A stretch of 64,000 bases of DNA, taken from Natronosalvus caseinilyticus. Its GTDB lineage: Archaea; Halobacteriota; Halobacteria; Halobacteriales; Natrialbaceae. Below, in pieces: positions 22,669-64,000 of this stretch. Position 1 is the stretch's first letter; the number at the start of each line of letters is the position of its first letter. A program made the position numbers and the translations under genes. The notes below the pieces were generated by a model, which saw nothing but the letters and a program-made list of their open reading frames with translations, ran no database searches and was not told the DNA's origin. The DNA is taken from the NCBI RefSeq assembly GCF_017357105.1, contig NZ_CP071596.1, forward strand, positions 2,604,001 through 2,668,000, in the 5' to 3' direction.

Positions 22669-22743
22669 GCTCGTCTCGAGACGTTCCTTACGCCGAAAAC
22701 GGAGTCCGAAGTGGAACCCGTGTCGAGATGGAGAGCGAGACCG

Positions 22744-23937: not shown

Positions 23938-23994
23938 CGGGACCACCGCGTTGCTGGTCGGTCGGTTTCGGTACGAGCGTCGGTCGTAGAGTCG

Positions 23995-24897: not shown

Positions 24898-24920
24898 CTG
24901 GTGTAGGGTATTCTCGAACA

Positions 24921-26840: not shown

Positions 26841-27162
26841 GCACACCTCGAGTCCCTCTCGTAGTCCCTTCAGCGGTCCTCTCGTGGCCCACTCGTGGTA
26901 CCTTCAAGTCCACTCCGAGGCCCCTCGTGGCCTGCTGACCGAATTTGAGGTCCTATCGGAGCGAAATTCTCTGGAAAGTGGATTCGGATGCAAAACGATC
27001 GACGCGCGACGAGTACACCGTATCGGTTTTGACGAATTAGAACCGGGAGTAACGGCTAAATCATTAGCCAGAGCAGACGCCTGTTTTATATACTCGAGAT
27101 ATGTGATAACGATACAATAGTTTGCGAAAATTATATTGTATTGTAAAATAATGTGTGGGTGG
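26841..27162. other. Intergenic region with AT-rich promoter end
   Basis: The first half is a C/T-rich tract with repeated CTCGTGGCC/CTCGTAG motifs. The last 100 bases become very AT-rich and carry the promoter of the lyase at 27163. No gene is seen. Confidence 0.55.
27124..27136 (+). promoter_or_regulatory. Promoter of lyase 1
   Basis: GCGAAAATTATAT combines a purine-rich TFB site (CGAAA) with TTATAT, about 28-35 bases before the ATG at 27163. It sets that ATG as the start and rejects the TTG at 27136 and the ATG at 27151. Confidence 0.6.
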
Positions 27163-30100
27163 ATGTCATATGACAAGCCACGTCGGGACCGTAGCGAGCG
27201 GTCTCGAGAGGAACTGGATGCAGTAACCGAACGGTCGAGCGCCTTCGACGTCTCGCGGCGATCGATGCTGGCGACGACGGGCGCCGGTATTCTCGGCGGG
27301 CTCTTCTCGAGCACCGGGACGGTCGGCGCCGCGGAGTCCGACGCGCTCAACGCGAAGACCCGAACCACGATCTGGACCGACGAGATGCGAGCGAACGCCC
27401 GACGGAACATCGGCCGGTACGACTGGGCCACGAGTCAACGGGACACCGCTGTCGCGGAAGCCGACGCGCGTCTGGAACGGCTGGGCCCCGACCTCGAGAG
27501 CCTCTGGAGCCTGGTCACTGCCCAGGGAATCCCTCGCGGCGGTGGACTGGTGAACCAGCGCGAGATCCTCGGCGGCTACCACGATTCGGGCGACGACCGC
27601 CTCTGGAAGATGAAGACGGAAGTCGACAATCCGCACGGCGACGGGAAACTCACCATGCCGACGAACGACTTCGGCGCCTACCGCGAGAGCGGCCTGGACG
27701 ACCGGGGAATGTTCGATCCCGACCTGGCCGACGACTCGCTGCTGGTCAACGAGGAACACCCCGAGATGGGCGAGGGCTGGGGCGTCGACGACGGCTGGGG
27801 ATGGATCGACGAGAACGACGACCTGGGCGGCGGCGCCGGTACCAGGTGGAACTTCGTCGCCTACTACAACCACTGGCACATCTGGCGGCCGGGAGGCATT
27901 CTCGGACTCGTTCGCCGCCTCACTGACGCCTACCTCTACACCGGCGACCGGAAGTACTCGAGGGCGGGAACCGTTCTCCTCGACCGGATTGCGGACGTCT
28001 ATCCCGAAATGGACCTCACCGAGTACACGTTCACGCTCGACGGGTTCTGGAACAGCCACGGCGGCCGCCAGACGGGGAAGGTGGTCGGTGCGTTCTGGGA
28101 GTCGAACCTCATGCGGCCGATCGTCCGCTCCTACGACGCGTTCTTCCCCGGCATGGAGGACGACGACGAACTCGTCGCGTTCCTCGAGGACAGAACCGAC
28201 GAGTACCCGGGTCTGGCGGACAAGGATTCGATCGAGAAGATCCGAAAGAACATCGAGGATGGTATCCACCGCGAGATCCTGCCAGCGAACAAGGATTCGA
28301 ACATGATCGTCGCGAGCGGCGGCGGGAGCGCACTCGTGCAGGCCGCTCGCGCACTCGACGAGCCCGACGGCTACACGAAGGAGGCGATCGAGTGGGTCTT
28401 CCAGCCCGGCGACGAGTACTTCGACGGTGACGTCTGGAACGAAGAGCCCGAGAACTGGTACACTACCGGCGGAAACATCCTCACCCCGCTGGTCGACCGG
28501 GCCGACCGCGACGGGTATTTCGAAATCGAGGCGCCACACTACAACCGCATCCCACACAGCTCGGTTCGACAGGTAGCCGACTATCTCCGGGGGTACGACG
28601 CGTTCGACGGCGCGGACCTCTACCAGCACCCCAAACTCCAGCAGTCGCTCCTCCAGAACACGCATCTGCTGTTGATCGACGAGTTCACACCCCAACTCGG
28701 CGACGCACACGGCCCGTCCGCCGTCGAGTGGAGCCAGACCTCGGTCGAGGAAGGATTCAAGCTGACTGGTGAGCCGATCTTCGCCCAACTGTGGCACTAC
28801 CAGAACGGCTACTCGACCGCGGGGATCAACGGCTCCATCTTCGACGCCGAGCCCGAGGACCTCAGCGACGACGTGCAGGCGATCATCGACGCCGAGGGGC
28901 CCCTCGACCTGCCGAGCCAGAACCTCGCGGGCTACGGCTTCGCCGCGCTCCGGGACGGCGAGAACTATCTGAACCAGTCGTTCGGGACGACCTACGACAC
29001 GTCGAACCTGTTCGCCGACGCCTCTACGGAGGTCAACGATAGCTTCGACGAAGCCATTCAGTTCCAGTGCTACGAACCCGGCGAGTGGTGGACCTTCGAG
29101 TTCGACGCCGACGAAGCCGGCGAGTACGACCTCGAGATCGAATCGCTGTTCGTCGGCTCGTACGGCATCTACGACCTGTTTCTCAACGGAGAGCAGGTCG
29201 ACACCGTCGACTTCTACAGCCCTTCGTTCACCCGCGACACCATCACGTACACGGTCGACCTCGAGGCTGGCACCAACGAACTCCGCTTCGAGTGCGTCGG
29301 CAAGAACGACGAGTCGAGCAACTACCTGATGGCGCTGTACTACCTCACGGTGGTCGGCGAGGACGAACGCGAGGACTGGGAGAACGCCAAAGAACTGGGC
29401 AACGCCAAGCGCGCGTTCTGGATGTACTACGGCCGAACGGGCATCAACGCGGGCGGCAGCACCCACAATCACGGCGACGCGCTCAACCTCGGCGTGGCAG
29501 CTCACCGGCTCGAGCTCTCGCCCGACCTTGGCTACCCCGAGCGGACCGGCAACTGGCCGAAACACGACTTCACGAAGGGGACGATTAGCCACAACACCGT
29601 CACGGTCGACCGATCGCGCCAGGAGCAGCGGTGGGTCGCCACGCCGCGTCACTTCGAGGGCGAGGACGAGCGAGTGAACCTGATCGACGTGGACGCCTAC
29701 CGAGCCTACGAGCAGTGCGACGAGTACCGGCGAACGACCGCGACGATCACCGTCGACGACGAGCACTCCTACGCCGTGGACTTCTTCCGCGTCGCCGGTG
29801 GCGACGATCACGTGTTCAGCTTCCACGGACAGGTCGGCGAGACGACGGCCGAGGGCGTCGACCTCGTCCCTCAGGGTGGCGGCACCTACGCAGGTGAGGA
29901 CATCCGGAAGCCGGACTACGGCGAGGAAACCGACTACAACCGCGAAGTCGGGAGCGGTTTCAACTACCTCACGAACGTCGAACGCGACACCGATCCCGGT
30001 TCCAGCGTGGCCGTCGACTGGGACATCGAGGACTACTGGAATCATCGCGACGACGACGCCGACGGTGTCCACCTGCGGCTGACCTCCTTCGGCGACTTCG

Positions 30101-30888
30101 ACGAGGTCGCCCTCGCGGACGGCCACCCACCTGACCGGAGCGGCAATCCCGACTCCCTGCGCTACGCACTCTTGCGTCGACAGGGGAGCGGCCTCGAGAG
30201 CGACTTCGTCTCGACGATCGAGCACTACGAGGGCGAGCGCGCCGTCGAGAACGTCGAGAAGGTTTCCGTCGAGGGCGGCGACGGTCACGCCGTCAGGGTC
30301 GAACTGACGAACGGGCGCACCGACTACGTGGTCTGCGCGTTCGACGAGACCGACACGCTGACGGTCGACGACACGTTCGAGTTCAAGGGCTTCTTCGGCC
30401 TCTACTCGGTCGAAGACGGCGAGCCCGAGTACGCCTACGTCCAGGACGGAACGCGGCTCAAGCCCCTCGACGAACCCGCACTCGTCCAGGAATCGGTCAG
30501 CCGCGTGCAGGGCATCGTCGAGGACTTCACCCGCGAGATGAGCCTCGAGAACGAACTGACGATCAGAGTTGCGGGTAACGGAGGCCACCTGGAGCGCCAC
30601 GCCGGCTTCGTCTACGTCGACAACGACGACTCCGATCCGTGGCGAGGTGAACCGGACCCGACGAACCCCATCGAAGGCCGCGACCAGCGCGGCCAGGGCA
30701 ACGGTACCTACCCGATCGAAGAGGTCGGGGACAGCAACGGGAATCTGGTGACGTTCGACACTGGTCGCCAGACGTTCACCCGGGACTTCGTCGACCCCGA
30801 CCAACTCGAGGACGGCGGCTACAACTACATCATCGACGACAACGACGACGTGCAGATTCCGTTGACGTCGACCTGGTCGGCAGAGTAA
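27163..30888 (+). CDS. Giant Tat-exported heparinase II/III-like polysaccharide lyase (lyase 1)
   Basis: 1241 aa. The Tat signal is S31-R-R-S-M-L followed by a hydrophobic stretch, with cleavage likely near residue 57. Regions in order: an alpha/alpha-toroid-like domain (about 65-590) with YYNH at 234-237 and NSHGGRQTG; a carbohydrate-binding-like beta domain (about 626-731; EWWTFEFD, then YGIYDLFLNGE); then the heparinase II/III beta-sandwich region. The latter has H768-x-H770-x-D, D788 in SPDLGYP and H810 in TISHNT. Lyases of this fold cleave uronate-containing chains by beta-elimination. In heparinase II an H-x-H pair provides a catalytic His and a zinc His. The protein should act outside the cell. 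It is very closely related to lyase 2 at 39932. Exact substrate unknown; heparan-, chondroitin- or archaeal wall-like polymers are possible. Confidence 0.9.
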   Translation: MSYDKPRRDRSERSREELDAVTERSSAFDVSRRSMLATTGAGILGGLFSSTGTVGAAESDALNAKTRTTIWTDEMRANARRNIGRYDWATSQRDTAVAEADARLERLGPDLESLWSLVTAQGIPRGGGLVNQREILGGYHDSGDDRLWKMKTEVDNPHGDGKLTMPTNDFGAYRESGLDDRGMFDPDLADDSLLVNEEHPEMGEGWGVDDGWGWIDENDDLGGGAGTRWNFVAYYNHWHIWRPGGILGLVRRLTDAYLYTGDRKYSRAGTVLLDRIADVYPEMDLTEYTFTLDGFWNSHGGRQTGKVVGAFWESNLMRPIVRSYDAFFPGMEDDDELVAFLEDRTDEYPGLADKDSIEKIRKNIEDGIHREILPANKDSNMIVASGGGSALVQAARALDEPDGYTKEAIEWVFQPGDEYFDGDVWNEEPENWYTTGGNILTPLVDRADRDGYFEIEAPHYNRIPHSSVRQVADYLRGYDAFDGADLYQHPKLQQSLLQNTHLLLIDEFTPQLGDAHGPSAVEWSQTSVEEGFKLTGEPIFAQLWHYQNGYSTAGINGSIFDAEPEDLSDDVQAIIDAEGPLDLPSQNLAGYGFAALRDGENYLNQSFGTTYDTSNLFADASTEVNDSFDEAIQFQCYEPGEWWTFEFDADEAGEYDLEIESLFVGSYGIYDLFLNGEQVDTVDFYSPSFTRDTITYTVDLEAGTNELRFECVGKNDESSNYLMALYYLTVVGEDEREDWENAKELGNAKRAFWMYYGRTGINAGGSTHNHGDALNLGVAAHRLELSPDLGYPERTGNWPKHDFTKGTISHNTVTVDRSRQEQRWVATPRHFEGEDERVNLIDVDAYRAYEQCDEYRRTTATITVDDEHSYAVDFFRVAGGDDHVFSFHGQVGETTAEGVDLVPQGGGTYAGEDIRKPDYGEETDYNREVGSGFNYLTNVERDTDPGSSVAVDWDIEDYWNHRDDDADGVHLRLTSFGDFDEVALADGHPPDRSGNPDSLRYALLRRQGSGLESDFVSTIEHYEGERAVENVEKVSVEGGDGHAVRVELTNGRTDYVVCAFDETDTLTVDDTFEFKGFFGLYSVEDGEPEYAYVQDGTRLKPLDEPALVQESVSRVQGIVEDFTREMSLENELTIRVAGNGGHLERHAGFVYVDNDDSDPWRGEPDPTNPIEGRDQRGQGNGTYPIEEVGDSNGNLVTFDTGRQTFTRDFVDPDQLEDGGYNYIIDDNDDVQIPLTSTWSAE

Positions 30889-39732: not shown

Positions 39733-39892
39733 GCACACCCAATTCGCGGCCCCCGTCCTAAATCCACCGCTCGTGGACGGCAACTGTCCCGCTGACTAGC
39801 CGTCGGACGCGCATCCTCGTTCCGTCTCGAGCCACCTGTTCTCGCTCCGAAGGGACCTATCGTTTCGTGTTATTGTGAAATGTATCTCAACC

Positions 39893-39908
39893 ATGAAAAT
39901 CTATATAT
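39893..39908 (+). promoter_or_regulatory. Promoter of lyase 2
   Basis: TGAAAATCTATATAT sits about 25-38 bases before ATG 39932. It shows the same GAAAAT-plus-TATAT layout as the lyase 1 promoter, suggesting parallel control, and rules out the upstream start at 39875. Confidence 0.6.
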
Positions 39909-39931
39909 CCTACGAGTTAGAGTGTTATTTG

Positions 39932-42900
39932 ATGTCACAGCGCAAGCAACGTGAGCGTGAGGAGCACCCTTCCGAAACGGGTGACGACCACCAGTGGGAA
40001 ATTGACCAGTTGGGCGCGGTTCGAAATCCCCTGACGAATCCGAATCTCTCGCGGCGATCGGTCCTGACGGCGACCGGTGCCGGGTTGCTCGCCGGATTGG
40101 TCCCGACGGGTACCGTCACCGCGGCTGAAGACGACGAGCGCTATCACCGCAAGACCCGGCCGACGATGTGGACCGAGACGATGCGGGCGAACGCTCGACG
40201 GAACATCGGTCGCTACGACTGGGCCGCGGGCCAGCGCGACAACGCCGTCGAGTCGGCCGATAGCTACCTCGAGAAGTACGGTCCTGACCTCGATAGCCTC
40301 TGGAGCCTCGTTACGTCCCAGCAGGTTCCGCGTGGTGGTGGCCTCTCGAACGAACGCCTCGTCCTGGGCGGCGACAGCGACCCCGGCACCGACCGCCTGT
40401 GGAAGATCGAGACGAACGTCGACGACCCCCACGGCGACGGCAAGTTGACGGTACCGACGAACGACTTCGGCGCCTACCGAGAGAGCGGCCTGAACGACCG
40501 GGGAATGTTCGACCCTGACCTGGCCGACGACTCGCTGCTGGTCAACGAGGAACACCCCGAGATGGGCGAGGGCTGGGGCGTCGACGACGGCTGGGGCTGG
40601 GTCGACGAGAACGACGACCTCGGGATGGGCGAGGGCAACCGGTGGAACTTCGTCGCCTACTACAACCACTGGTTCGTCTGGCGCCCCGGTGGGGTTCGTC
40701 GAATTCTCGACGCGCTGGTCGACGCCTACCTGCTCACCGAGGAATCGAAGTACGCGGTCGCCGGACTGGTACTCATTGATCGGATCGCGGACGTCTACCC
40801 CGAGATGACGATCGCGGACTACCAGCAGAACGCCCACGGCTTCTGGAACAGCCACGGCGGCCGCCAGACCGGTCGCATCATCGGGTCACACTGGGAGGGC
40901 AACCTCGCCCGGCGGCTGCTTGTCGCCTACGACGCGTTCTTCCCCGCGCTCGACGATCCGGCGGTCGCGGACGATGTCGTGAGATTCCTGGATGGGAAGA
41001 CCGACGAATACCCCGGACTGGCCGCCAAGGATTCGGTTGCGCGTATCCGAGAGAACATCGAGGAGAACTACATCCAGGAGATCTTCCTGGCCGCGAAGGC
41101 GTCCCAGATCGCCCCTGGGCGGGGCCAGTTGTCGGCACTCGCGATTTCGGCCCGGGTGCTCGACGACACGCGCGAGAACGGCTATACGCGGGAGGCCATC
41201 GAGTGGATCTTCCAGCCCGGCAACGAGTACTTCGACGGCGACGTCTGGAACGAGGAACCCGAGAACTGGTACACGACGGGTGGAAACGTGCTCGCTCCGA
41301 TCGTCGACCAGTGCGACCGCGACGGGTACTGGCACGAGGGCTCCCTCGGCTACAACCGGATCCGGATGTCCTCGATCCTGCAAGTCGCCCAGAACCTGCA
41401 GGGCTACGACGGGTTCGACGGCGCCGACCTCTACCAGCATCCGAAGTTCCAGAGCGCCCTCAAGATCAACTCGGACCTCCTGCTCCTGGACGAATTCTCG
41501 CCTGCGCTCGGGGACACCCACCACCCGGCGGGCAACGAGATGAGCCAGAGCGGCATTTCGGACGGCTACGAGGTGACGGGCGGTTCCCGATTCGCCAAGC
41601 TGTGGCACTACTCGAACGGCTACTCGACGACTGGAATCAGAGGCTCCATCTACGACGCCGAACCCGAGGGACTCGCCGAGGAAATCCAGTCGATCGTCGA
41701 CGCCGAGGGACCCCTCGACCTGCCGAGCCAGAACCTTGCGGGCTTCGGCTTTGCAGCCCTCCGGGACGGCGAGAACTACACGACCGAATCCTTCGGCGAA
41801 ACCTACGACACGTCCGACCTGTTCGCCGAGGCCTCCGCCCCGATCAACGACAGCTTCGACGAGGCGATCCAGTTCGAAGCCAGCCAGGCGGGCGAGTGGT
41901 GGACGTTCGAGTTCGACGTCGCAGACGCCGACGAGTACGAACTCGATCTCGAGACGCTGTTCGTCAGCACCTACGGCATCTACGACCTGTCCATCAACGG
42001 CGAGTACGTCGACACCATCGACTTTATGGCCGATGGCAGCGGTCGAGACACCATCTCGTACCTGCTCGAGTTGCCCGCGGGAACCAACACGATGCGCTTC
42101 GAGTGCGTCGGCAAGAACGACGACTCCGGGGGGTACAAGATGGCGCTGTACTACTTGACGTTGTTCGACGAAGAAGCCCGCGAACGTCGGGACGCGGCCG
42201 AACTGGGGAACGCGAAGCGCGCGTTCTGGATGTATTACGGCCGGAACGGAATCGGCGGCGGTGGAACCCCGCACGCTCACCGCGATACGCTACAGATCGG
42301 CGGTGCGGCCCACGAGATGGAACTCTCTCGGGACCTCGGCTATCCCGAGGCCACTGGTTCCCACCCGCCGCGACAGTTCTTCACGGACAACACGATCAGC
42401 CACAACACGGTCGTAGTCAACGAACGCGGCCAGGATCACCACTGGGTCGGCCAGCCACGACACTTCGAGGGCGAGGACGAACGGGTGAACCTGATCGACG
42501 TCGAGGCACCTCACGTCTACGAGGAGACCGACGAGTACCGGCGAACGACCGCGATGATCACCGTCGACGAGGAACACTCCTACGCCGTGGACTTCTTCCG
42601 CGTCGCCGGCGGCGACGACCACCGTTACGGCTTCCACACCACGAAAGCCGACCTCGCCACCGAGGGCCTCAACCCCGAGGCCCAGGACGGCGGGACGTTA
42701 GCCGGAGAAGGCGTGCCGTACGCAGATTCGTCGTACAACAGTCCGCGGTCGCCAGACTCGCGAGGGGCCGGGCTCAACTACTTCGACCAGGTCGAACGCG
42801 ACGACGACCCCGCAGACCGGGTCGTCCTCGACTGGGATATCGAGGACCACTTCAACATGCGGGACGACGACGCCGACGGTGTCCACCTGCGACTCACGTC

Positions 42901-43711
42901 GTTCGGCGACTTCGACGACGTCGAACTGGCCAACGGCTATCCCCCGAACAGCTCCGGGGGCGCCGCGCCAGAGGACAGCCTCAGGTACGCCTTCCTCAAC
43001 CGGCGTGGATCGGACCTCGAAACGACGTACACGTCCGTGATCGAGCACTTCGACGGCGACCGAGTCGTCGACTCGATCGAGGAGGTTCCGGTTTCGGGCG
43101 GGCCGGGCCACGCCGTCAAAGTCGAACTGACGAACGGGCGCACCGACTACGTCGTCTGTTCGTTCGAGAAGACCGACACGCTGACGGTCGACGACACCTT
43201 CGAGTTCAAGGGCTTCTTCGGCCTCTACTCGGTCGAAGACGGCGAGCCCGAGTACGGTTACGTCCAGGACGGAACGCACCTCGAGCCCCTCGACGAATCA
43301 CCGCTCATCCAGGAAGCCGAGGGGTTCGTCCGGGGCACCGTCGAGGACTTCACCCGGGAGATGAGCCTCGAGAACGAACTGACGATCCGAATTGCCGCCG
43401 ACAAGAACCTCCTCGAGCGCCACACCGGATTCGTCTACGTCGACAACGACCAGCGCGACCCCTGGCGGGGCGAACCCGACCCGGAGAACCCGGTCCTGGG
43501 TCGCGACCAGCGCGGCCGAGGGAACGGTTCCTATCCGGTCGAGGCCCTGGAGGGCGGGCGCGGAAACCTGCTGACGGTCGACGTCGGCGAGAAGACCTTC
43601 ACCCGTGATTTCGTCGACCCAGACCGGCTCGAGGACGGCGGGTACAACTACATCATCGAGGAAGGCGACGACGTTCGGATTCCGCTGACGTCGGTGTGGT
43701 CGCGGGAGTAG
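39932..43711 (+). CDS. Giant Tat-exported heparinase II/III-like polysaccharide lyase (lyase 2)
   Basis: 1259 aa. The Tat signal has R41-R42 (SRRSVLTATG), with cleavage probably near 64. The domain order equals lyase 1: toroid with YYNH at 243-246 and NSHGGRQTGR, inserted beta domain, then beta-sandwich with H781-x-H783-x-D, D801 (SRDLGYP) and H824 (TISHNT). All residues proposed as catalytic or zinc-binding in lyase 1 are conserved. The two proteins are highly similar along their length and share an identical 80-base stretch, yet loops differ around residues 500-560 and in the 940-960 region. They probably act on related but not identical linkages. The protein works outside the cell and feeds the importer. 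Flanked by the divergent D-aminoacylase operon and convergent with the amidotransferase. Confidence 0.9.
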   Translation: MSQRKQREREEHPSETGDDHQWEIDQLGAVRNPLTNPNLSRRSVLTATGAGLLAGLVPTGTVTAAEDDERYHRKTRPTMWTETMRANARRNIGRYDWAAGQRDNAVESADSYLEKYGPDLDSLWSLVTSQQVPRGGGLSNERLVLGGDSDPGTDRLWKIETNVDDPHGDGKLTVPTNDFGAYRESGLNDRGMFDPDLADDSLLVNEEHPEMGEGWGVDDGWGWVDENDDLGMGEGNRWNFVAYYNHWFVWRPGGVRRILDALVDAYLLTEESKYAVAGLVLIDRIADVYPEMTIADYQQNAHGFWNSHGGRQTGRIIGSHWEGNLARRLLVAYDAFFPALDDPAVADDVVRFLDGKTDEYPGLAAKDSVARIRENIEENYIQEIFLAAKASQIAPGRGQLSALAISARVLDDTRENGYTREAIEWIFQPGNEYFDGDVWNEEPENWYTTGGNVLAPIVDQCDRDGYWHEGSLGYNRIRMSSILQVAQNLQGYDGFDGADLYQHPKFQSALKINSDLLLLDEFSPALGDTHHPAGNEMSQSGISDGYEVTGGSRFAKLWHYSNGYSTTGIRGSIYDAEPEGLAEEIQSIVDAEGPLDLPSQNLAGFGFAALRDGENYTTESFGETYDTSDLFAEASAPINDSFDEAIQFEASQAGEWWTFEFDVADADEYELDLETLFVSTYGIYDLSINGEYVDTIDFMADGSGRDTISYLLELPAGTNTMRFECVGKNDDSGGYKMALYYLTLFDEEARERRDAAELGNAKRAFWMYYGRNGIGGGGTPHAHRDTLQIGGAAHEMELSRDLGYPEATGSHPPRQFFTDNTISHNTVVVNERGQDHHWVGQPRHFEGEDERVNLIDVEAPHVYEETDEYRRTTAMITVDEEHSYAVDFFRVAGGDDHRYGFHTTKADLATEGLNPEAQDGGTLAGEGVPYADSSYNSPRSPDSRGAGLNYFDQVERDDDPADRVVLDWDIEDHFNMRDDDADGVHLRLTSFGDFDDVELANGYPPNSSGGAAPEDSLRYAFLNRRGSDLETTYTSVIEHFDGDRVVDSIEEVPVSGGPGHAVKVELTNGRTDYVVCSFEKTDTLTVDDTFEFKGFFGLYSVEDGEPEYGYVQDGTHLEPLDESPLIQEAEGFVRGTVEDFTREMSLENELTIRIAADKNLLERHTGFVYVDNDQRDPWRGEPDPENPVLGRDQRGRGNGSYPVEALEGGRGNLLTVDVGEKTFTRDFVDPDRLEDGGYNYIIEEGDDVRIPLTSVWSRE

Positions 43712-44685: not shown

Positions 44686-45465
44686 TTACCGTCCCGTCGA
44701 GACGATGGATCGGACGGTCTCGAGGTCGGCCTCGATCGCCTCCCGGTAGGGACGCTCGTCGGTCACGAACTCCACGTTCGCGAAGCCGTCGAACCCGCCC
44801 TCGAGGAACGGTTCGAGGATCGCCTCGAGGTCGTAGTACGCCTCCGCGAGCGGGGCGCGAGCGCGTTCGGTTCGCTCACGCGTCGTCTGGAGGTGAAGCT
44901 GATTCGAGAGCGGCGCGAGTTCCTGGGCCTCGCGCTCGAGTTCGGCTGCTGGAATCGAAAAGCCCGGCTGGTAGTTCAGGCAACAGCGCTCGTCGTCGAT
45001 CGTCTCGATCAGCCGTCTGGCGCCCTCGCGGGTGTGCGTGACCGTGTTGTTGTGCTTCTCGACGGTGATCTGCACGTCGTAGTCGGCGGCGCGCTCGGTC
45101 AGTTGCTCGAGATCGGCGACGACTCGATTCCAGTGATCCTCGTCGTGATCACCGTACTCCTGGCTACCCGCCCAGACTCGGATGATATCCGTGTCGAGGC
45201 GGTCGGTCACCGCGAGTTCGTGCTCGAGGTCGGCGGCGAAGTCGTCGCTGCCACAGCGCAGGTACGAGCCATGGGAGGCAATCTCGAGGCCGCGAGCGCT
45301 CGTCGCCTCGTTGATCCGCTCGCAAGTCGCCTCGGAGCCGTCACCGACGTGATCGCGGCCCCAGAGTTCGACGCCGTCGTACCCGGCCTCAGCGGCCAGA
45401 TCGAGGACTTCCTCGAGGGAGCGCCCTTTGGCCGAGATCGTACACAGGCCGACGCGAATCGTCAT
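44686..45465 (-). CDS. Sugar phosphate isomerase/epimerase (TIM barrel)
   Basis: 259 aa. The start MTIRVGLCTIS and the repeated barrel pattern (AAEAGYDGVELWGRD, then QITVEKHNN with metal-site Glu/His, and FANVEFV with the last Glu) place it in the xylose-isomerase-like/AP-endonuclease 2 superfamily. The third metal ligand region (CCLNYQPGFS) is less typical, which may reflect a distinct substrate. Its ATG overlaps the stop of the aldo/keto reductase gene by four bases, so the two are translationally coupled. With two Gfo/Idh proteins upstream it may process keto-sugars. The long frame extending to 46545 is a shadow of the reductase gene. Confidence 0.84.
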   Translation of the reverse strand: MTIRVGLCTISAKGRSLEEVLDLAAEAGYDGVELWGRDHVGDGSEATCERINEATSARGLEIASHGSYLRCGSDDFAADLEHELAVTDRLDTDIIRVWAGSQEYGDHDEDHWNRVVADLEQLTERAADYDVQITVEKHNNTVTHTREGARRLIETIDDERCCLNYQPGFSIPAAELEREAQELAPLSNQLHLQTTRERTERARAPLAEAYYDLEAILEPFLEGGFDGFANVEFVTDERPYREAIEADLETVRSIVSTGR

Positions 45466-46430
45466 CGCGCTCCCTCCACGTCGGCGTAGGCGTCCGTGAT
45501 ACGGTCCAGCTGGTCGTCGGTCACCGACAGGTCCACCGCCCCCGCGTTCTCCTCGAGCTGGTCGACCGTCCGGGCGCCGACTATAGGGACGCAGGTAAAC
45601 CGGTCGCGAGCCATACACCACCGGAGCGCGACCTGCGCGGGAGTCGCCCCGGTCTCGGTCGCGACCGACCGGACGACCTCGAGGACGCGCCACTGACGCT
45701 CGTCGAACCGGTCGTTCCACCCCTCCAGGTCGCCCCGCGATCCGGCGGGTGCCTCGCCGTAGCGGTCGTACTTCCCCGTGAGGAAGCCGCCCTCGAGTGG
45801 CGAGTACGGACAGACAGCCAGGCCCTGGTCGGCACAGACGTCGAGGTAGTCGGCGACCTCGTCCCGGTAGGCGGCGTTGAACCGCGGCTGGGTGATCTCG
45901 AATCGCTCGAGGTCCTCGCGGTCGCTCTCCCAGAGCGCCTTCGTCAGCTTCCAGGCGGCGCCCGCAGACGCCCCGAGGTAGCGGACGGTGCCCTCTCGGG
46001 CGAGGTCGTCGAGGGTTCGCAGCGTCTCTCGGAGGGGCGTCCCGTCGTCGAATCGGTGGATGTAGTAGACGTCGAGGTAGTCCGTGCCGAGTCGCTCGAG
46101 CGTGTCCTGAATCTCCGAGCGGATCGACTTCCGCGAGAGGCTCGTCTTGGGCACGCCACGCGTTCGCCACCACACTTTGCTCGCGATCACGAAATCCTCG
46201 CGGTCGTGGTCGGCGAGCCACTCGCCGATCCAGCGTTCGCTCCTTCCGCCGCCGTAACTGTTGGCCGTGTCGACGAAGTTGATCCCCTGCTCCCAGGCCG
46301 CGTCTAGCAGGTCGTGTGCGGTCTCGCGATCCGTCTCGAGCGTCCCGTTCGATTCCTTGCCGAACCGCCAGGTGCCGAGACACAGCGGCGACACCGTCAG
46401 TCCGGTCGAGCCCAGTCGTCGGTACTCCAT
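45462..46430 (-). CDS. Aldo/keto reductase
   Basis: 322 aa, (beta/alpha)8 NADPH-dependent oxidoreductase. The catalytic tetrad is visible in order: D and Y in FVDTANSYGGGRSE, K in VIASKVW, H in YYIHRFDD. The C-terminal cofactor region VPIVGARTVDQLEEN is typical. It belongs to the potassium-channel-beta-like/AKR7-type group that reduces aldehydes or sugars. It is coupled by a four-base overlap to the isomerase downstream. An upstream ATG at 46526 is not supported, because the conserved MEYRRLGSTGL start is at 46430. Probable role: redox step on a released sugar or keto-sugar in the cytoplasm. Confidence 0.92.
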   Translation of the reverse strand: MEYRRLGSTGLTVSPLCLGTWRFGKESNGTLETDRETAHDLLDAAWEQGINFVDTANSYGGGRSERWIGEWLADHDREDFVIASKVWWRTRGVPKTSLSRKSIRSEIQDTLERLGTDYLDVYYIHRFDDGTPLRETLRTLDDLAREGTVRYLGASAGAAWKLTKALWESDREDLERFEITQPRFNAAYRDEVADYLDVCADQGLAVCPYSPLEGGFLTGKYDRYGEAPAGSRGDLEGWNDRFDERQWRVLEVVRSVATETGATPAQVALRWCMARDRFTCVPIVGARTVDQLEENAGAVDLSVTDDQLDRITDAYADVEGAR

Positions 46431-46602
46431 GTGTGGGTACTGTGACCCCGCCACCAAAGAGATAGGGGGAGCGGCAGGGTACGCGGTCGGTCGCCGCTCG
46501 AAGGGTGTCTCGCCCTGGTATGCCATCGCTCGTTTGGCCCGTCATTCCCCTCGTCGCTCGGCTCGCTCATACGAATACTCCCGCACTCGCGTACTCACAC
46601 AC

Positions 46603-52764: not shown

Positions 52765-54141
52765 CTGAAAGAGAGGGCGCTAAGCCCCCGCACGAGTGTC
52801 AAACCATTCTAATCAGAACATTTAATTAACCACAACCACTAGCAGAGGACAAGTCGCATGGAGTACAGTTCACGATACAGGCTCTTCCCAACGACCGACC
52901 AACGCGAGAGCCTCGACTGGACTCGTGACATCGTGCGACAAGTGTATAACCACGCACTCTACGAATTCAACCAGATACCAGAAGACGACGGAACCCTTCG
53001 ACAACGCGTCTGGAGCGTCCGAGACGAACTGCCAGCCTGGAAAGACTGGTGGGCAGGACTCACCAACGTCTACTCAACCGTCTTGCAGAAAGCTGTCGAA
53101 CGTATCCGAACCAACATCCAAAACCTCGGCAAGTTGAAAGCCAAAGGGTACGATGTTGGCTCGTTGAACTGGAAGAAACCGCGAGAGTACAGGTCGTTCA
53201 CGTATCGGCAATCGGGCTTCGAACTCGACAAGAAGAGTGGCCCGCGAGGCCGAGCAATTCTCCGACTCAAAAAAGTCCGCGGCGACACCCTGGAAATCCC
53301 AATCCGACTCCACCGAGACCTTCCAGCACACGACGCTATCAAAGAGGTTACGGTGAAGAAAGAACCCACCGGGGCGTGGTACGCCTCGTTCTGCATCAGC
53401 ACGGAGACGCCAGAGAAACCCGCTCCAGATGATATCAATGCCGAAGACACTGTAGGTCTCGACCTCGGTGTACTCAACTTCATCCACGACTCGGACGGTT
53501 GCTCCATCGGGCGACTCGACTTGGTCGATGAGCGAGAGCGCCTGGAACGCGAGCAGCGCTCGCTCTCCCGAAAGCAATACGAGTCGAATAACTGGGAGAA
53601 ACAGCGCCTCCGCGTTGCTGAGGTTCACGCTCGCATGTCGAACAAGAAATGCGATTACAAGCACAAACTCGCGCATTTCTACGCGACGGAGTACGACGCC
53701 GTGTTCGTCGAGAACTTGAACGTGAAGTCGATGCTGGAGTCGGAGGGCAACGCTCGGAACAAGGCTGAAGTGGGTTGGAGTGATTTCCGTTCGGCACTCA
53801 AACATCACTGCAAGAAGCACGGCACGCACTACGTGGAAGTCAACCCACGAGGCACGACGAAGGAGTGTGTGTCGTGTGGCGTAGAAACCGAGAAACCGCT
53901 GTGGGTTCGGGAACACTCGTGTCCCGCGTGTGGGTTCGAGTTGGATAGGGATTGGAACGCCGCGTTGAACGTGAAATCGCGTGGTCTGTCGAAACTAGGA
54001 GTGGTTCACTCCAAAGCAACGCCTGTGAAGACTGCGACCGCTGTGGACTCGGTTTCCATGTCTGCAAGTCGCGTCGTGGAAACAGGAAGCCCCCGCCTCA
54101 AGGAACGAGCACAAGCGAGTGAGTAAGCAGGGGTAGTTCAC
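52765..54141 (+). mobile_element. IS1341-type element (IS200/IS605 family, TnpB only)
   Basis: The left end has a GGGC-GCTAA-GCCC hairpin at 52775-52787. The right end has a partial hairpin, CCCCCGCCT (54090-54098) against AAGCAGGGG (54125-54133), followed by GTAGTTCAC. Only tnpB is present, with no TnpA Y1 transposase, as usual for IS1341-type elements of haloarchaea. No terminal inverted repeats or target duplications are expected. The exact left border is uncertain by a few bases. It sits between the ceramidase-like gene and the esterase gene. Confidence 0.8.
52858..54126 (+). CDS. tnpB: TnpB (IS605 OrfB), RNA-guided nuclease of an IS1341-type element
   Basis: 422 aa, full length. TnpB proteins are ancestors of Cas12 and cut DNA at sites specified by a guide RNA made from the element's right end. 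The RuvC-like triad is complete: D202 in VGLDLGVLNF, E285 in VFVENLNV, and D363/D365 in ELDRDWNAALN. The zinc ribbon has CVSC and CPAC pairs before the last Asp. The N-terminal MEYSSRYRLFPT and the basic helix region are typical. With all catalytic residues intact it may be active, although without TnpA it cannot move alone. An AT-rich leader with TTTAATTAA precedes the ATG. Base use is more AT-rich than in its neighbours, a sign of foreign origin. Confidence 0.95.
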   Translation: MEYSSRYRLFPTTDQRESLDWTRDIVRQVYNHALYEFNQIPEDDGTLRQRVWSVRDELPAWKDWWAGLTNVYSTVLQKAVERIRTNIQNLGKLKAKGYDVGSLNWKKPREYRSFTYRQSGFELDKKSGPRGRAILRLKKVRGDTLEIPIRLHRDLPAHDAIKEVTVKKEPTGAWYASFCISTETPEKPAPDDINAEDTVGLDLGVLNFIHDSDGCSIGRLDLVDERERLEREQRSLSRKQYESNNWEKQRLRVAEVHARMSNKKCDYKHKLAHFYATEYDAVFVENLNVKSMLESEGNARNKAEVGWSDFRSALKHHCKKHGTHYVEVNPRGTTKECVSCGVETEKPLWVREHSCPACGFELDRDWNAALNVKSRGLSKLGVVHSKATPVKTATAVDSVSMSASRVVETGSPRLKERAQASE

Positions 54142-58078: not shown

Positions 58079-58759
58079 GGTCGCTCGAGCGGTCGAACGA
58101 GACGGGACGGGTAACTGCATACCAGTTTTATCGAATTTACTTTATACTTTGAATGGTGATAGCTCGCTTCGTACCAGAGCAAAACGCTCCGTTTGAGGTT
58201 AGTCCTATAAATGGCAATAAAGCTTTAAATACTCCTCGACGCACTCCCGGTAATCCGAATACGGTTCGAATTCTGGATGCGGCAATCAGGAGACAGTGAC
58301 CTGAATCGTCCGTCCAAAACGGCCGTCAAAACCCGCCCAAAGGAGTCATAACAAGGTTGGCGTATCTGATTTGTTCACCCGTTCGGCCTGGGATTCAGCA
58401 ACACCCCACTCGTCGATGACAGTCTCCCGATCTAGCTGACGTCTCGTTTGCTCGGGACTCGAGTCGAACGGAAACTATTCTCTCAGTATTCAGAGTAATA
58501 GTTGAAACTTATGGAATACATACACTTCACCAGGAACCAGTTCGCGAAGAGTTACGGATTCACACGCCGATAGCTGGAATTCGGTAGTGTACGGAACGAA
58601 ACCGACGTCCTCGAGAAAACACGTAGTCCAAGTGGTGACACCAGAAAACGGCGACGGTCACGTCGAGACTTCTGGAGGGTCGAATCGGTAGTACGTCGTG
58701 CGATTGTCACGAACGACGAGGTTCACCACTCCATTCACCGTTCTACCCGACCGGAACAC
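58079..58759. other. AT-rich region between convergent genes, nothing assigned
   Basis: About 680 bases. Between 58120 and 58260 the DNA is AT-rich with TATA-like stretches (TTTACTTTATAC, AGCTTTAAATACT) although both flanking genes end here, so these are not their promoters. A 48-codon frame at 58153-58299 has no recognisable pattern. Confidence 0.5.
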
Positions 58760-59773
58760 TCACCTGACGTGTGGGATTTCCTCGACGCGATCGGGATCGC
58801 GATCGTGAATGTCACCGGTAGCCGCCGTTCCGATCAGCGAGAGGAGCGACGGCAGCGTCGTGCGCGTTCGAGTCCGATACTGATCGACCGACTTCGGTTC
58901 GACGACTTCGTAGATGATGCTCCCTCTGTCCTGTAATCCATACGCCTTGTGAGCGACGCCGGGATACGCTGCCGTCGCCGGATATCGGCTGACGACGCGA
59001 TCGAATCGGCTGAGGTGGTCGTAGACCTGCACGCACATCTTTTTGGACAGTGTGAGTCCGTCCTCGGGAACCGGCTTTTCTCCCAGGACGGGCCACATCA
59101 CCGAGTGCGTGACGGCTGCTCCGTCATCGGTCGTTTTCTCGCCCTGCCCGTGGATGTCGACGAACAATTCGGGGTCGACGCGATCGACGGCCTCGGTTAC
59201 TGCCCGCGCTTCTGGAACCGGATTCTCCGGGAACTGCTCCGGGTGGTGCCTGTAGAGGCGACTCTCGGTCCAGTCGGGGAAGTGATACCGGTTCGGATCC
59301 CAGCCACGACCCTGGTAGGTCGTCGTGAAAATGCCCTCGTCGGTATTCGGGTCCGGCGCGTCCGGATCGACGTTCCCGCGGAACTCGATCTCCGCGCCGT
59401 CCGGGTTCGCCCGCGGGACGACGTGAACGGTCACGTCGTCCAGGTGGGCCTCGGACTTTCCGCTCGCGAGGTAGTGCAAGAGCGCGACGAGGCTCGTCGA
59501 CCCGGACGATTCGTTCCCGTGTTGCTGTCCGACGAACAGGACGTCCGTGTCGCCGCGGCCGACCGAGATCATGTCGATGTCCCAGCCCTGGTTCGACGTG
59601 CCGACCGTCGTCCTCGAGAACAGCCGTCCGGCCATCTCGAGGTGGTCGAGTACCCGCTGTAGTTCAACGTAGGGTCGATGTTTTTCGTCGCGAGGGGTCG
59701 CGTCGGTTCCGAGCGGTGCGTCGCCGAATATGCCGTCGTGTTTCGTCTCTGTCAATGGTCGAATTCGTGTCAT
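58760..59773 (-). CDS. M14-family zinc carboxypeptidase-like protein (second)
   Basis: 337 aa. Metal motif H85-G-N-E88 in GQQHGNESSG, NPDGAE at 123-128, third ligand H208 in FVDIHGQG, and candidate catalytic Glu E289 or E292 (IIYEVVEP). It is distinct from the M14 protein at 6668, mainly in the inserted DPNTDEGIFTTTYQGRGWDPNRY loop region. There is no signal peptide in the sequence as read. It follows the divergent lyase by only 30 bases on the same strand, so the two form an operon. M14 enzymes remove C-terminal amino acids or cleave related amides. Here a peptide or aminoacyl substituent of the polysaccharide is possible. Confidence 0.87.
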   Translation of the reverse strand: MTRIRPLTETKHDGIFGDAPLGTDATPRDEKHRPYVELQRVLDHLEMAGRLFSRTTVGTSNQGWDIDMISVGRGDTDVLFVGQQHGNESSGSTSLVALLHYLASGKSEAHLDDVTVHVVPRANPDGAEIEFRGNVDPDAPDPNTDEGIFTTTYQGRGWDPNRYHFPDWTESRLYRHHPEQFPENPVPEARAVTEAVDRVDPELFVDIHGQGEKTTDDGAAVTHSVMWPVLGEKPVPEDGLTLSKKMCVQVYDHLSRFDRVVSRYPATAAYPGVAHKAYGLQDRGSIIYEVVEPKSVDQYRTRTRTTLPSLLSLIGTAATGDIHDRDPDRVEEIPHVR

Positions 59774-59803
59774 TCGTGAGTTCTCGTAGTTGTTTTCGAA
59801 CGG

Positions 59804-62800
59804 TCAGTCGACGCGTTCCCAGGTGTGGGATAGCGGAATGCGCATCGGTGCGCCCGATTCGATCGTGTACTCGTAGCCGGCGTCGGGATTCGACGGATCG
59901 ACGTACCTCTCGACGGTCGTCGTTTCGCCGATATCCAGGGTGAGCTGGTTGCCCCGGTCGCTCGTCGCGCCCTCGATGCGGTACGCTTCGGCGCCCGTTC
60001 CCGTCTCGACGTAGAGCCACTCGCCGACGAGGTCGTCGGCGTCGTCGGGTCGATGCTCCGACGTCAGTCGGACCTGAATTTCGTTCGTCCGCGACGGCTC
60101 GCGTGTGAAGTCCACCACGTGCCCGTCGAATGCGTCGGGTTGATCGCGAATCAGTGGCGGTCCATCGCGAGCGGGCGCGAGCATCGATCCGTCCTCGAGG
60201 AACGCCGACTTCGCAACCCCGTCGCGCTCGGAGTAGACGGCCAGGAACCCCTCGAACCGGAACACGTCCCCGACCCGGCAGGTCGAGTCGCCGGGTGCGT
60301 AGGCGACGTAGTCAGTACGGCCGTTCGACAGCGTCACCTGCACGGCTCTCGCAACGCCGTCGTCCGAGTGAACGGGTACCGGTTCGATCGACTCGACGTT
60401 TCGCGACTCGCGGTAGGGTTCGATAACGGAGGTGAACGTGCTCTTGAGGTTCGACCCGTGACGTCGAGCGAGAGCGTAGCGGAGGCTCCACGGATTCCCG
60501 GTGTGACGAGGCGGCCGGCCGTCCGCGAGCGCGACCTCGTCGACGTCGCCGACCATCGTCAGCCGGAGGTGGGCATCCCCTTCGTCAGGGACGACTCCCG
60601 GTGCGTCCGTGACCTCCCAGTCGACGCTGAATCGCTCGTCCGGGTCGTCGTCGTGGACGACGGCGTCCAGGTAGTCGAAGCCGTTGCCGACCCTCCGGTC
60701 GTGGGCGGATTCCTCGCCGTAGACTGGTCGGGGGACGTCTGGTCCGGCGTAGGTTCCGCCGTCCTGGGCCTCGAGGTCGAGCCCGCTCGTCGTGGTTGAC
60801 TCGGCCGCACCGTGGAAACTGAAGCGATGATCATCGCCACCGACGATCCGGAAGAAGTCGACCGCGTACGAGTGGTGGTTGTTGATCCGCACCATCGCAG
60901 TGGTGCGGCGGTACTGGCTCGTCGTCGGGTACGCGCCCGTCGAGTCGACGTCGGCGAGGCGTACCCGATCTGTCTCCCTGAAGTGGTGGGGTGACCCACC
61001 CTCGGTTTCCGACTGCGGGGACTCGTCGACCACGACAGTGTTGTGACTGATCGTGTTCGACGTCCAGTGCTCTCCCTTCGGCCACGCCGACAACTCGGCG
61101 GGCGAGTCTGGATCTCGCCAGAAGCCGGTGTGCTCGGGATAGCCCAGGGCTGGCGCGAGGTCGCCGCCGTAGGCGTGGACGTCCAAGTGTAACGCGTCGC
61201 GATACGACCGGTCCGATCCCCGGCCGTCCGGCGTCGAGGCCCCGTACCGGAGGGCAAACGACCGCTGGGTGTTCCCGCGTTCGGCCTCGAGTTCCTCCTC
61301 GCGCTGGGCGCGCTCGTCGAGGAACTTGCACTCGATGACGCCCATTTTGTAGTTCGTGGCGGCGGGTCGCTTGCCAGTGTTCTCGAACGTGATCCGGTGT
61401 TCGCCCCTCGAGAGGTCGACCTCGTCGGCGAGGACGGTGAACTCTTTAGCGCCCGTCACCTCGTCGTAGAAGTCGTACTCGGCGATCCGCTCGCCGTCGA
61501 TCAGCACGTCGTAGGTGCCGTACCCCGACGACCTGAACGGCTTCAGGCTGAACTCGTAGGTTTCGGCGACCGGGATCGAGAACTGGAACGTGATCGACTG
61601 ACCCACCGTGTCCGCCTCGAACTGGACCGTGCCGCTGTTGCTGTAGACGGTGTAGTCGGTCGTGTGCTCGAGGACGATCATCGAGGGGAACTGGTCGACG
61701 ACGCGGTAGCCGCCGCGGATGTAGTGGTCGCCGTCCCGAAGCGCGACGAACCCGGTTCCCGCCTGGTTCGTGCTCGAAAGTTCCAGCGGCCCGTCGGCGT
61801 CGATAACCTCGCGCACCGCCTTCGCAGTGCCCGCCGGGTCCGGGCTGAAGATGCTGCCGTGGAGGTCGTCGTACCCGTACCCGTTCGCGAGGAACGCCCC
61901 CTTCGCGAACTGGCCGTCGCCGAACGACTCCAGGGCGGTCGTCATCGCTTCGGTCTCAATCGGCAGCCACGGCGTGCCGGTTCGTCCCATCGCCCCCATA
62001 CTGGGCAGGTACGCTTCGCGAAGCACCTGCGGGAGTCGGCCGCCGGCCGCTCGTTCAAGTTTCGGGTGGTCGGCCAGCGCCGGATCGTTGTCTCCCTCGT
62101 ACCCCTCGAGGACGGCCGTCACGCGCTCGAGCGCCCGATACGCCCGTTCGGCGGCCGCTGGCGATCCCGGCGCGTTGCCGTCCCGATCGACGGCGTCGAC
62201 CAGTTCGGCGCGCAGGCTGCCGCCGGTGACGCCCCACTCGCCCCAATACGAGCCGTCGTCGCGGTGGGTCCGCTCACCAGGTCGAAGGAGAAACTCGAGG
62301 ACGTCACCGGTGTACCCATCAGGGTCGTTCTGGACGGCCCCAGCCATCGCGAGCGCCGTTCGGTGACCGCCCGACGGCGAGTGAATCTGGTGGGATTTCA
62401 CGGCAGGTAACACCGCTCGGACGACGTTCGATTCGACGTTCTCGCGGAGGTCGTCGGCCGTTCCTTTCGAGCCGATCTCGTACTCGGTCGCCCGCTCGTC
62501 CAGGAACGCGAGCAGTTCGGCGTCGTCCGTCGCGGGGAGGAACGCGTCGTACGCGCTCAGGAGGACGCGAACGGTGATCGTCTCCTGGACGCAGCCACAG
62601 ATTTTCCCCTGGCCGGTCCACTGGTGGACGCCGGCGTAGCCGTCGTCATAACGGTGAGTGGACAGATCCATCTCGGGGTAGACGTCCGCGATGCGGTCCA
62701 AGAGGACGAGTCCGGCCCGCGCGTACTCGGCGTCCTCGGTGAACAGGTACGCGTCGCGAAACGCCCTGAGCGCCTCGAGCAGTTGCTCCCAGCGGTAAAT

Positions 62801-63574
62801 CCGGTTGTAGTATGCCACGAAGTGGTAGCGGGCGCCTTCGACGCCGAGGTAGCCGTCCTCGTCGACCCAGCCAGTGCCGTCGTCGACGCCCCAGTCGTCC
62901 GGTTTGTCGGGCCGTCGCTCGTTGACGAACAGCGAGTCGTCGGCCAGGTCCGGGTCGAAGACGCCGCGATCGTCGAGACCGCTCTCGCGGTAGGCGGCGA
63001 AGTCGTTCGTCGGGAACACGCCGCCGCTCGAGGGTTCGACGACGGTCCACGGTTCGTCGGTCGCGAACGTCACGTCCTGGCGCTCGACGCCTGGGGTCGA
63101 GTCGATCAGTTCCCACGGCCGTCGCGTCGACTCGGCCTCGAACGGAACCTCGTCGAACGACTCGTATACGCCCGCGTCGTTGAGCGGGCGATCACCCTCG
63201 GCCATCGTGGAGAGCGCCACGCTCCGGGGAACGGATTGCCCGGTAACGGCCTGCCACAGTCCGTCAAACCCGTCGTAGGTCTCGAGGTACTCGGTCGCGG
63301 TTTCGACGGCCGACGCTCGCCGGTCGGCCGCCCAGGTGTAGTTCTGGACGTTCTCGAGCGCCGCGTTTCGCCGCTCCGGCGTGTACAGATTCGATCGGTG
63401 CTTCTCGGCCTGGATTACGGTTGGCCTGGAGCCTTCGCCCCGCGTCGGGTCGGCCGACAGGAACAAACCGAGCGAGAGCAGGCTCGTGGTCTGAAGAAAC
63501 TCCCGACGGCCGTGCCCTCGAGAATCCGATAGTTCGTCGTCCGGGCGATTCGTCCGCTCCACACTGTTACTCAT
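59804..63574 (-). CDS. Tat-exported heparinase II/III-like protein with altered active site (lyase 3)
   Basis: 1256 aa. Tat signal with R23-R24 (GRREFLQTT). Same domain order as the other two lyases: toroid, inserted beta domain (SGYGTYDVLIDGE), beta-sandwich with TISH844NT and a matching C terminus. However, positions equal to H768, H770 and D788 of lyase 1 are R789, Y791 and A809 in an ungapped alignment. The YYNH of the toroid reads YYNR. The loop equal to NSHGGRQTG is also changed. It may therefore be an inactive binding protein, or use other residues. Exported and likely extracellular. ATG 63574 is preferred over the upstream start at 63589. It heads an operon with the M14 protein at 58760. 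Confidence 0.85.
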   Translation of the reverse strand: MSNSVERTNRPDDELSDSRGHGRREFLQTTSLLSLGLFLSADPTRGEGSRPTVIQAEKHRSNLYTPERRNAALENVQNYTWAADRRASAVETATEYLETYDGFDGLWQAVTGQSVPRSVALSTMAEGDRPLNDAGVYESFDEVPFEAESTRRPWELIDSTPGVERQDVTFATDEPWTVVEPSSGGVFPTNDFAAYRESGLDDRGVFDPDLADDSLFVNERRPDKPDDWGVDDGTGWVDEDGYLGVEGARYHFVAYYNRIYRWEQLLEALRAFRDAYLFTEDAEYARAGLVLLDRIADVYPEMDLSTHRYDDGYAGVHQWTGQGKICGCVQETITVRVLLSAYDAFLPATDDAELLAFLDERATEYEIGSKGTADDLRENVESNVVRAVLPAVKSHQIHSPSGGHRTALAMAGAVQNDPDGYTGDVLEFLLRPGERTHRDDGSYWGEWGVTGGSLRAELVDAVDRDGNAPGSPAAAERAYRALERVTAVLEGYEGDNDPALADHPKLERAAGGRLPQVLREAYLPSMGAMGRTGTPWLPIETEAMTTALESFGDGQFAKGAFLANGYGYDDLHGSIFSPDPAGTAKAVREVIDADGPLELSSTNQAGTGFVALRDGDHYIRGGYRVVDQFPSMIVLEHTTDYTVYSNSGTVQFEADTVGQSITFQFSIPVAETYEFSLKPFRSSGYGTYDVLIDGERIAEYDFYDEVTGAKEFTVLADEVDLSRGEHRITFENTGKRPAATNYKMGVIECKFLDERAQREEELEAERGNTQRSFALRYGASTPDGRGSDRSYRDALHLDVHAYGGDLAPALGYPEHTGFWRDPDSPAELSAWPKGEHWTSNTISHNTVVVDESPQSETEGGSPHHFRETDRVRLADVDSTGAYPTTSQYRRTTAMVRINNHHSYAVDFFRIVGGDDHRFSFHGAAESTTTSGLDLEAQDGGTYAGPDVPRPVYGEESAHDRRVGNGFDYLDAVVHDDDPDERFSVDWEVTDAPGVVPDEGDAHLRLTMVGDVDEVALADGRPPRHTGNPWSLRYALARRHGSNLKSTFTSVIEPYRESRNVESIEPVPVHSDDGVARAVQVTLSNGRTDYVAYAPGDSTCRVGDVFRFEGFLAVYSERDGVAKSAFLEDGSMLAPARDGPPLIRDQPDAFDGHVVDFTREPSRTNEIQVRLTSEHRPDDADDLVGEWLYVETGTGAEAYRIEGATSDRGNQLTLDIGETTTVERYVDPSNPDAGYEYTIESGAPMRIPLSHTWERVD

Positions 63575-64000
63575 TATCAACCACACCACACCTTTCGAAG
63601 ATTTCGTAATATTATTTTGGGTTACATTCTGTGAGGGTGATGAGAATATTCCCTAGGATTAATCTAACAATCTCGTAAAACAATCACCGAGAGTTTTGGT
63701 TTATTCAGGCGTAATAAGACACGCCGGCGAACGGATGGGCGGTGACCCACTTCGCGAAAGAAGCGAACGCGCTCCGGCAACGTGAACGGACACCCTCCGT
63801 TGCGCACGATGCGACGATTCCGCTTCGTCACTCGAGAACCGACGGGCGATTTGGTGTTTATACCGACCGATAGCACCGCGGAGCCCCGTCCAATCGAGGG
63901 CACCGCGGAGATTCGTCAAACCGGATGCTCAGTCGTCCGTGGCGACCGATCGTCGCATCCTCGAGAGCGTCGAACCCCCGCGTTTCTCCGCGTGTGACTC
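63575..64000. other. Window end, no gene seen
   Basis: The first 80 bases are AT-rich and contain the minus-strand promoter of lyase 3 (AATATTACGAAA around 63602-63613). The rest has only short Arg/Pro-rich frames without support. Confidence 0.5.

Follow-up and report, generated by a model that had tools for sequence, protein, structure and literature searches.

A predicted pseudo-lyase alongside two paralogues with complete catalytic sets in a haloarchaeal glycan-degradation locus

Introduction

A 64,000-nucleotide stretch of Natronosalvus caseinilyticus DNA (contig NZ_CP071596.1, positions 2,604,001 to 2,668,000; hereafter the window) encodes three related proteins of the heparinase II/III lyase fold in a glycan-degradation locus. 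Two of them, lyases 1 and 2, have the full catalytic set, and the third, lyase 3 (W3), lacks residues of that set. The locus raises the question of what a full-length, exported protein of this kind is kept for. We predict that W3 is a secreted pseudo-lyase, probably maintained as a non-catalytic glycan-binding protein.

In insects, some carbohydrate-active enzymes are known to have lost catalysis and yet to remain under selection; in the literature searched, we found no report of one among the heparinase-fold lyases or in archaea. The locus offers a natural set of two active-type lyases and a predicted dead one that share a putative substrate, while a close relative lacks the dead one, and the contribution of a pseudoenzyme is thereby testable by deletion.

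Results

The three proteins and their domains

The genes, and the domains of W3, lie at the following positions of the window.

27136..30888, plus strand: lyase 1 (W1, P0001), full catalytic set H777, H779, D781, D797, H819 and Y469
39875..43711, plus strand: lyase 2 (W2, P0002), full catalytic set
59804..63574, minus strand: lyase 3 (W3, P0003), intact open reading frame (ORF) from ATG, 1256 aa; predicted pseudo-lyase
63503..63508, minus strand: twin-arginine pair R23-R24 of W3, in RREFLQTT (residues 23-30), export signal
61730..63409, minus strand: W3 toroid domain, ~residues 56-615
61325..61657, minus strand: W3 CBM84-like (MiXBM-like) domain, ~residues 640-750, inserted between toroid and sandwich
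60245..61306, minus strand: W3 beta-sandwich (Hepar_II_III_C-like) domain, ~residues 757-1110

From its N-terminus W3 consists of a twin-arginine translocation (Tat) signal, an alpha/alpha toroid, the CBM84-like domain, the beta-sandwich and a C-terminal domain. It is ~38-41% identical to lyases 1 and 2, and has domain order, locus and export route in common with them. The preliminary description of W3 as full length and Tat-exported is borne out by the intact 1256-aa ORF and by RREFL at residue 23. Homology to lyases 1 and 2 is clear in the MAFFT alignment; in Pfam, the PF07940 match of W3 is weak (E = 0.0012, 18.9 bits, below the 24-bit cut-off) and that of lyase 1 is above the cut-off. No NCBIfam family was found for lyases 1-3. 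Residues 640-750 of W3 align by sequence and fold with the CBM84/MiXBM xanthan-binding module, with the difference that the copy in W3 is inserted inside a lyase.

Assignment of the catalytic residues

In solved lyases of this fold the base is the first His of an H-x-H motif and the acid is a Tyr of the toroid (PMC12088678, Table 4; PMC12915356). The metal is bound by the second His, an Asp and a later His, and the carboxylate is neutralised by an Asn, often together with a His (PMC12088678; PMC12915356). Mutation of the equivalent His, Asp or Tyr in PL35 GAGase II or PL40 Uly1040 abolished or strongly reduced activity (PMC12088678; PMC12915356).

The sandwich residues of the window proteins map onto PL17 AlgL17 by sequence. 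In the toroid, Y469 of lyase 1 is probably the acid Tyr, a well-supported assignment by sequence, because it is invariant in the family, is appropriately spaced from the base, and lies in a motif (DRDG...APHYN in lyase 1, DRDG...EGSLGYN in lyase 2) that resembles EGTSYW of PL33, whose Tyr is the one replaced in the Y291A mutant of 8r70. Y469 is ~308 residues ahead of the base, or ~190 when the CBM insert (~120) is subtracted, compared with 180 in Uly1040. When the mapping was put to a direct profile comparison with a PL33-like protein, no alignment was obtained.

The YYNH motif was considered as the catalytic Asn-His pair and rejected: it lies ~223 residues ahead of the Tyr, compared with ~50-60 for the neutralising Asn of solved lyases. 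In the lyase 1 AlphaFold model it is part of an early helix of the toroid, well upstream of the Tyr, and is probably on the substrate side rather than a catalytic pair. The best-fitting neutraliser position (389 of lyase 1) varies among Q, D, N, E, H and R in members with intact sites.

W3 has lost its base, probable acid and metal-site residues

Lyase 1 is numbered here from the TTG of its ORF, and the H768, H770 and D788 of the preliminary description correspond to H777, H779 and D797 minus 9. All positions below are on the minus strand.

61202..61210, minus strand: R789-x-Y791, in place of H-x-H (base and metal ligand; H777/H779 of lyase 1); Arg in 3 of 3 W3-like proteins, second position His in Haladaptatus
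61148..61150, minus strand: A809, in place of the metal-ligand Asp (D797 of lyase 1); Haladaptatus retains Asp
61043..61045, minus strand: H844 of TISHNT, last metal ligand; retained in W3, Asn in Haladaptatus
62153..62155, minus strand: A474, in place of Y469 of lyase 1, the probable proton donor; still Tyr in Haladaptatus
62801..62803, minus strand: R258, in place of the His of YYNH; Arg in 3 of 3 W3-like proteins, His in 41 of 44 others
62618..62620, minus strand: W319, in place of a Gly found in 40 of 44 others; Trp in 3 of 3 W3-like proteins
61169..61189, minus strand: H796-x-D798-x-H800-x-Y802, one strand, candidate relocated site; H800 and Y802 also in Haladaptatus

The earlier claims that the H-x-H pair and the Asp become R789, Y791 and A809, that YYNH becomes YYNR and that TISHNT is retained hold in MAFFT alignments of the three window proteins and then of the wider family, and the change to YYNR is found throughout the clade. 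The list of lost residues stands as described, but it overlooked two changes, that of Y469 to A474 and that of the toroid 'GD' Asp, D523 of lyase 1, to A528. Some members with intact sites have Asn at the latter position. W3 retains D793 of the HxHxD motif. Measured against the roles assigned above, W3 has Arg for the base His, as have both of its orthologues; it has Ala for the acid Tyr, which the Haladaptatus orthologue keeps; and its metal site is broken at the second His and the Asp.

Among 181 family columns in which at least 95% of members have one residue, W3 is changed at 24, including 4 of the 6 active-site columns (hypergeometric P = 0.003, with the active-site set fixed beforehand from the fold and with columns that are not independent). 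The loss is not a chance event, since H777, H779 and Y469 are invariant in the 44 + 6 other family members. The residue loss in W3 is thus confirmed, and it is stronger than the preliminary description stated.

The base was lost in a small clade

The family survey covered haloarchaeal genomes, plasmids and two Opitutia contigs, and yielded 44 further members, later 50. H777, H779 and Y469 were kept in 50 of 50 other members. The base was lost only in the W3 clade, that is, in W3, its 91%-identical orthologue in genome G277 and a 49%-identical orthologue from Haladaptatus sp. DYSN1. The latter is encoded on plasmid NZ_CP120472 (L037:19989-23660) of an organism from a different family than that of the window, and is annotated as 'hypothetical protein'. 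Its annotated start (P0648_RS19175) omits a Tat signal, RRDFLKT, present in frame upstream (L037:19506-19989).

In four columns, the three clade members are fixed for a residue other than the one present in at least 90% of the rest; three of these changes are H246R, G310W and H777R. The clade received an SH-aLRT (Shimodaira-Hasegawa-like approximate likelihood ratio test) support of 100 when the active-site columns were removed, under both LG+G4 and a mixture model. Long branches are flagged in both trees, but a common N-terminal insert, the export signal and the neighbour gene point to the same grouping. The trees place W3 as an old deep branch, and a recent duplication of lyase 1 or 2 was discarded as its origin. 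Two higher-scoring matches from another family, L115 and L116, were rejected as further orthologues, their sites being intact. No W3 relative was found in the viral contigs searched.

The order of residue loss can be read from the two lineages, which share the lost base and differ in the remaining erosion. The Haladaptatus protein has YYNR and R-T-H and keeps the Asp and the Tyr, yet its TISHNT has become TASNNT, with the last ligand changed from His to Asn. The simplest order is that the base disappeared in the common ancestor, before the acid and metal residues were eroded separately in the two lineages, since Haladaptatus retains Tyr, second His and Asp and lacks the last ligand, and the lost base is common to both. 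Differing erosion of this kind would be expected of a site that had ceased to serve catalysis. The R-x-Y pattern, whose conservation in other genomes the preliminary description proposed to look for, does not extend across the clade: Haladaptatus has R-x-H, and the clade shares instead the base-to-Arg change, YYNR and the new Trp.

The two Opitutia (Verrucomicrobiota) contigs, L005 and L006, carry relatives with intact sites in what is otherwise a haloarchaeal lyase family, which suggests transfer between Opitutia and haloarchaea.

W3 is under purifying selection, relaxed in the toroid

The ratio of nonsynonymous to synonymous substitution rates (dN/dS) was estimated pairwise between the window genome and G277, with bootstrap. 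The value was 0.20 for W3 (bootstrap 0.156-0.253), compared with 0.10 for lyase 1 and 0.12 for lyase 2. Most of this excess came from the toroid, where W3 had 0.19 and lyases 1 and 2 had 0.04 and 0.07, with W3 greater in every bootstrap comparison. The sandwich values were equal (0.16, 0.14 and 0.14 for W3, lyase 1 and lyase 2), and that of the W3 CBM84-like domain was 0.04, with wide limits of 0-0.14. These overall and per-domain values show that W3 is maintained by purifying selection, and that selection is relaxed in the half of the protein where the acid and substrate residues were located. W3 combines two features of a pseudoenzyme, a catalytic loss fixed across its clade and a gene under purifying selection.

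The lyase fold is retained

AlphaFold models of lyase 1 and W3 had a predicted local distance difference test score (pLDDT) of 79.9 and 69.6, respectively. In Foldseek searches of the PDB with either model, PL17 and PL40 ranked first, for W3 at 1e-15 to 1e-18, and the heparinase II entries 2fuq and 3e7j ranked much lower. W3 is accordingly not closest to PL21, and heparinase II, the template on which the preliminary description relied, was set aside for the nearer PL17 and PL40 folds. By these models W3 retains the lyase fold; it belongs to the heparinase II/III-fold lyases by descent and fold, with a toroid followed by a beta-sandwich of Hepar_II_III_C homology.

The toroid plus beta-sandwich arrangement is shared with PL17 and PL40 (Alg17c, AlgL17, Uly1040), then with PL15, PL39, PL35, PL12 and PL21, and the TISHNT region and sandwich of W3 align with AlgL17. 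In contrast to these enzymes, W3 bears a CBM84-like insert between the two domains, and has lost the residues used for catalysis in them as base (His), acid (Tyr) and metal ligands (second His and Asp). Lyases 1 and 2 and their haloarchaeal relatives keep the whole catalytic set, unlike W3 and its two orthologues. If members of this family are annotated on their fold alone, lyases are overcalled.

A probable glycan-binding role and its alternatives

The lost base, acid and metal residues, the fixed Arg, Arg and Trp, purifying selection and the export signal argue for a glycan-binding pseudo-lyase, as do the unrelaxed CBM84-like domain, co-inheritance with the adjacent M14 carboxypeptidase gene (see below) and the glycan-locus setting. 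On this reading W3 is a relative of the heparinase-II/III-fold lyases whose Brønsted base disappeared in the ancestor of its small haloarchaeal clade. That ancestor acquired two Arg and a Trp, which would suit the binding of acidic sugar chains, and the putative cleft, with these residues in place of His, His and Gly, may together with the CBM84-like domain bind a uronate- or sulfate-bearing polymer, perhaps the one that lyases 1 and 2 cut. W3 could then hold substrate or products near the cell, or present them to other secreted enzymes. The preliminary description had left the choice between a glycan-capture protein and a new mechanism. Non-catalytic capture appears the better option, and a mechanism built on R-x-Y is disfavoured, because metal ligands eroded differently in two lineages argue against one coherent R-x-Y mechanism.

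Leaf-beetle GH28 pseudo-polygalacturonases provide a parallel, with catalysis lost, purifying selection and active paralogues alongside, and these dead proteins contribute to pectin digestion (PMC6549527). Fold, chemistry and host differ from those of W3, and importance was established by gene silencing in the beetle and is inferred for W3. Haloarchaeal PL8 hyaluronate/chondroitin lyases are, like W3, Tat-exported and encoded in glycan loci, but belong to a different lyase family; the passages of that report consulted describe a single PL8 lyase per strain and do not describe the family of W3 (PMC13260240).

Several points weigh against a glycan-binding pseudo-lyase. The W3 model is only of moderate quality, the orthologue set comprises three proteins only, and of 8 genomes from the genus only 2 carry W3. 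Relaxation of the toroid could reflect slow decay, and the polar strand H796/D798/H800/Y802 could form a shifted site with the retained D793 and H844.

With such a relocated site W3 would still act on glycans, through H796, D798, H800 and Y802, to which D793 and H844 might contribute, or through Arg789 acting as the base, and would be a lyase, epimerase or hydrolase with different chemistry. The four residues alternate along one stretch, H800 and Y802 recur in Haladaptatus with no other member having a His at the H800 position, and D798 stands where all 44 others have Gly. Arg or Lys is the base or acid in other lyase families, PL1 and PL6, which would fit a catalytic Arg. However, Haladaptatus has Ser and Gly at the positions of H796 and D798, so that the clade does not conserve the full cluster, the acid Tyr is lost in the window genus, constraint is relaxed in the toroid half of the site, and Y305R and Y305K of PL40 Uly1040 are dead (PMC12915356). 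We consider a relocated site unlikely. It is highly improbable that W3 was re-tooled outright, with this His/Asp/His/Tyr face grown one strand along after loss of the ancestral base, so as to act with the linked M14 protein, through chemistry new to the fold, on an acidic glycan that bears peptides or amino acids.

A regulator or decoy that pairs with lyase 1 or 2, or that titrates an inhibitor or product, would not work through glycan binding of its own. W3 shares genome, export route and fold with two active-type paralogues, and such roles have been discussed for the dead beetle GH28 proteins (PMC6549527), but W3 branches deeply rather than beside lyase 1 or 2, and genome G250 has lyases 1 and 2 without W3. 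We regard this role as doubtful.

That W3 is a gene on its way out, with falling constraint and no selected role in the window genome, is very unlikely: its toroid dN/dS is ~3-5 times the lyase 1 and lyase 2 values, it is absent from most genomes of the genus and 755 bp replace W3 and M14 in G250, but its frame is intact in two species, the CBM84-like domain is unrelaxed, the overall dN/dS is still 0.20, and a 49%-identical orthologue in another family has the same export signal and M14 neighbour. Decay or sequencing error was accordingly disfavoured, and the earlier statement that the gene is not decaying stands on frame, orthologue and dN/dS, but has to be qualified for the relaxed toroid.

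The M14 neighbour and the glycan locus

Downstream of W3 lies a gene that accompanies it in each genome.

58760..59773, minus strand: M14 zinc carboxypeptidase (P0004), 30 bp downstream of W3, with HxxE (H85/E88), His208 and Glu289
58109..63874: stretch with W3 and M14, 5.77 kb; present in the window and G277, with ~755 bp in its place in G250

The M14 gene adjoins W3 in 3 of 3 genomes with W3; that which follows the Haladaptatus orthologue is 55% identical. More distant M14 proteins (46% and below) are present elsewhere without W3. G250 is syntenic on both sides of the stretch and has lyases 1 and 2, and its ~755 bp contain no convincing remnant of W3 or M14. Adjacency in all three genomes and joint absence from the syntenic G250 indicate that W3 and M14 are gained or lost as a pair. 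No export signal was seen in the M14 sequence, which makes it an unexpected partner for a secreted glycan-locus protein. At a guess, this partner might point to a peptide-bearing substrate.

The glycan-degradation locus of the window also encodes sulfatases (SGSH_C), GH3 and GH20 proteins, a PIG-L deacetylase, a glucuronoyl-esterase-like protein, an oligopeptide-type ABC importer and Gfo/Idh oxidoreductases. The Haladaptatus plasmid with the W3 orthologue has many reciprocal best matches to this locus.

Three further segments of the window were noted. A TnpB-like ORF, recognised by eye, lies at 52858-54126 on the plus strand, and ~52.7-54.1 kb has no match in the syntenic G250 or G277; this stretch looks like an insertion in the window genome only. 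Within the syntenic block, 45465-46602 is unaligned to G250 and G277 although its flanks align, and an ORF there matches Haladaptatus. Finally, a long ORF at 22711-24906 on the plus strand has no Pfam or NCBIfam match and lies opposite minus-strand ORFs with Haladaptatus matches; it is likely a shadow ORF of a high-GC genome.

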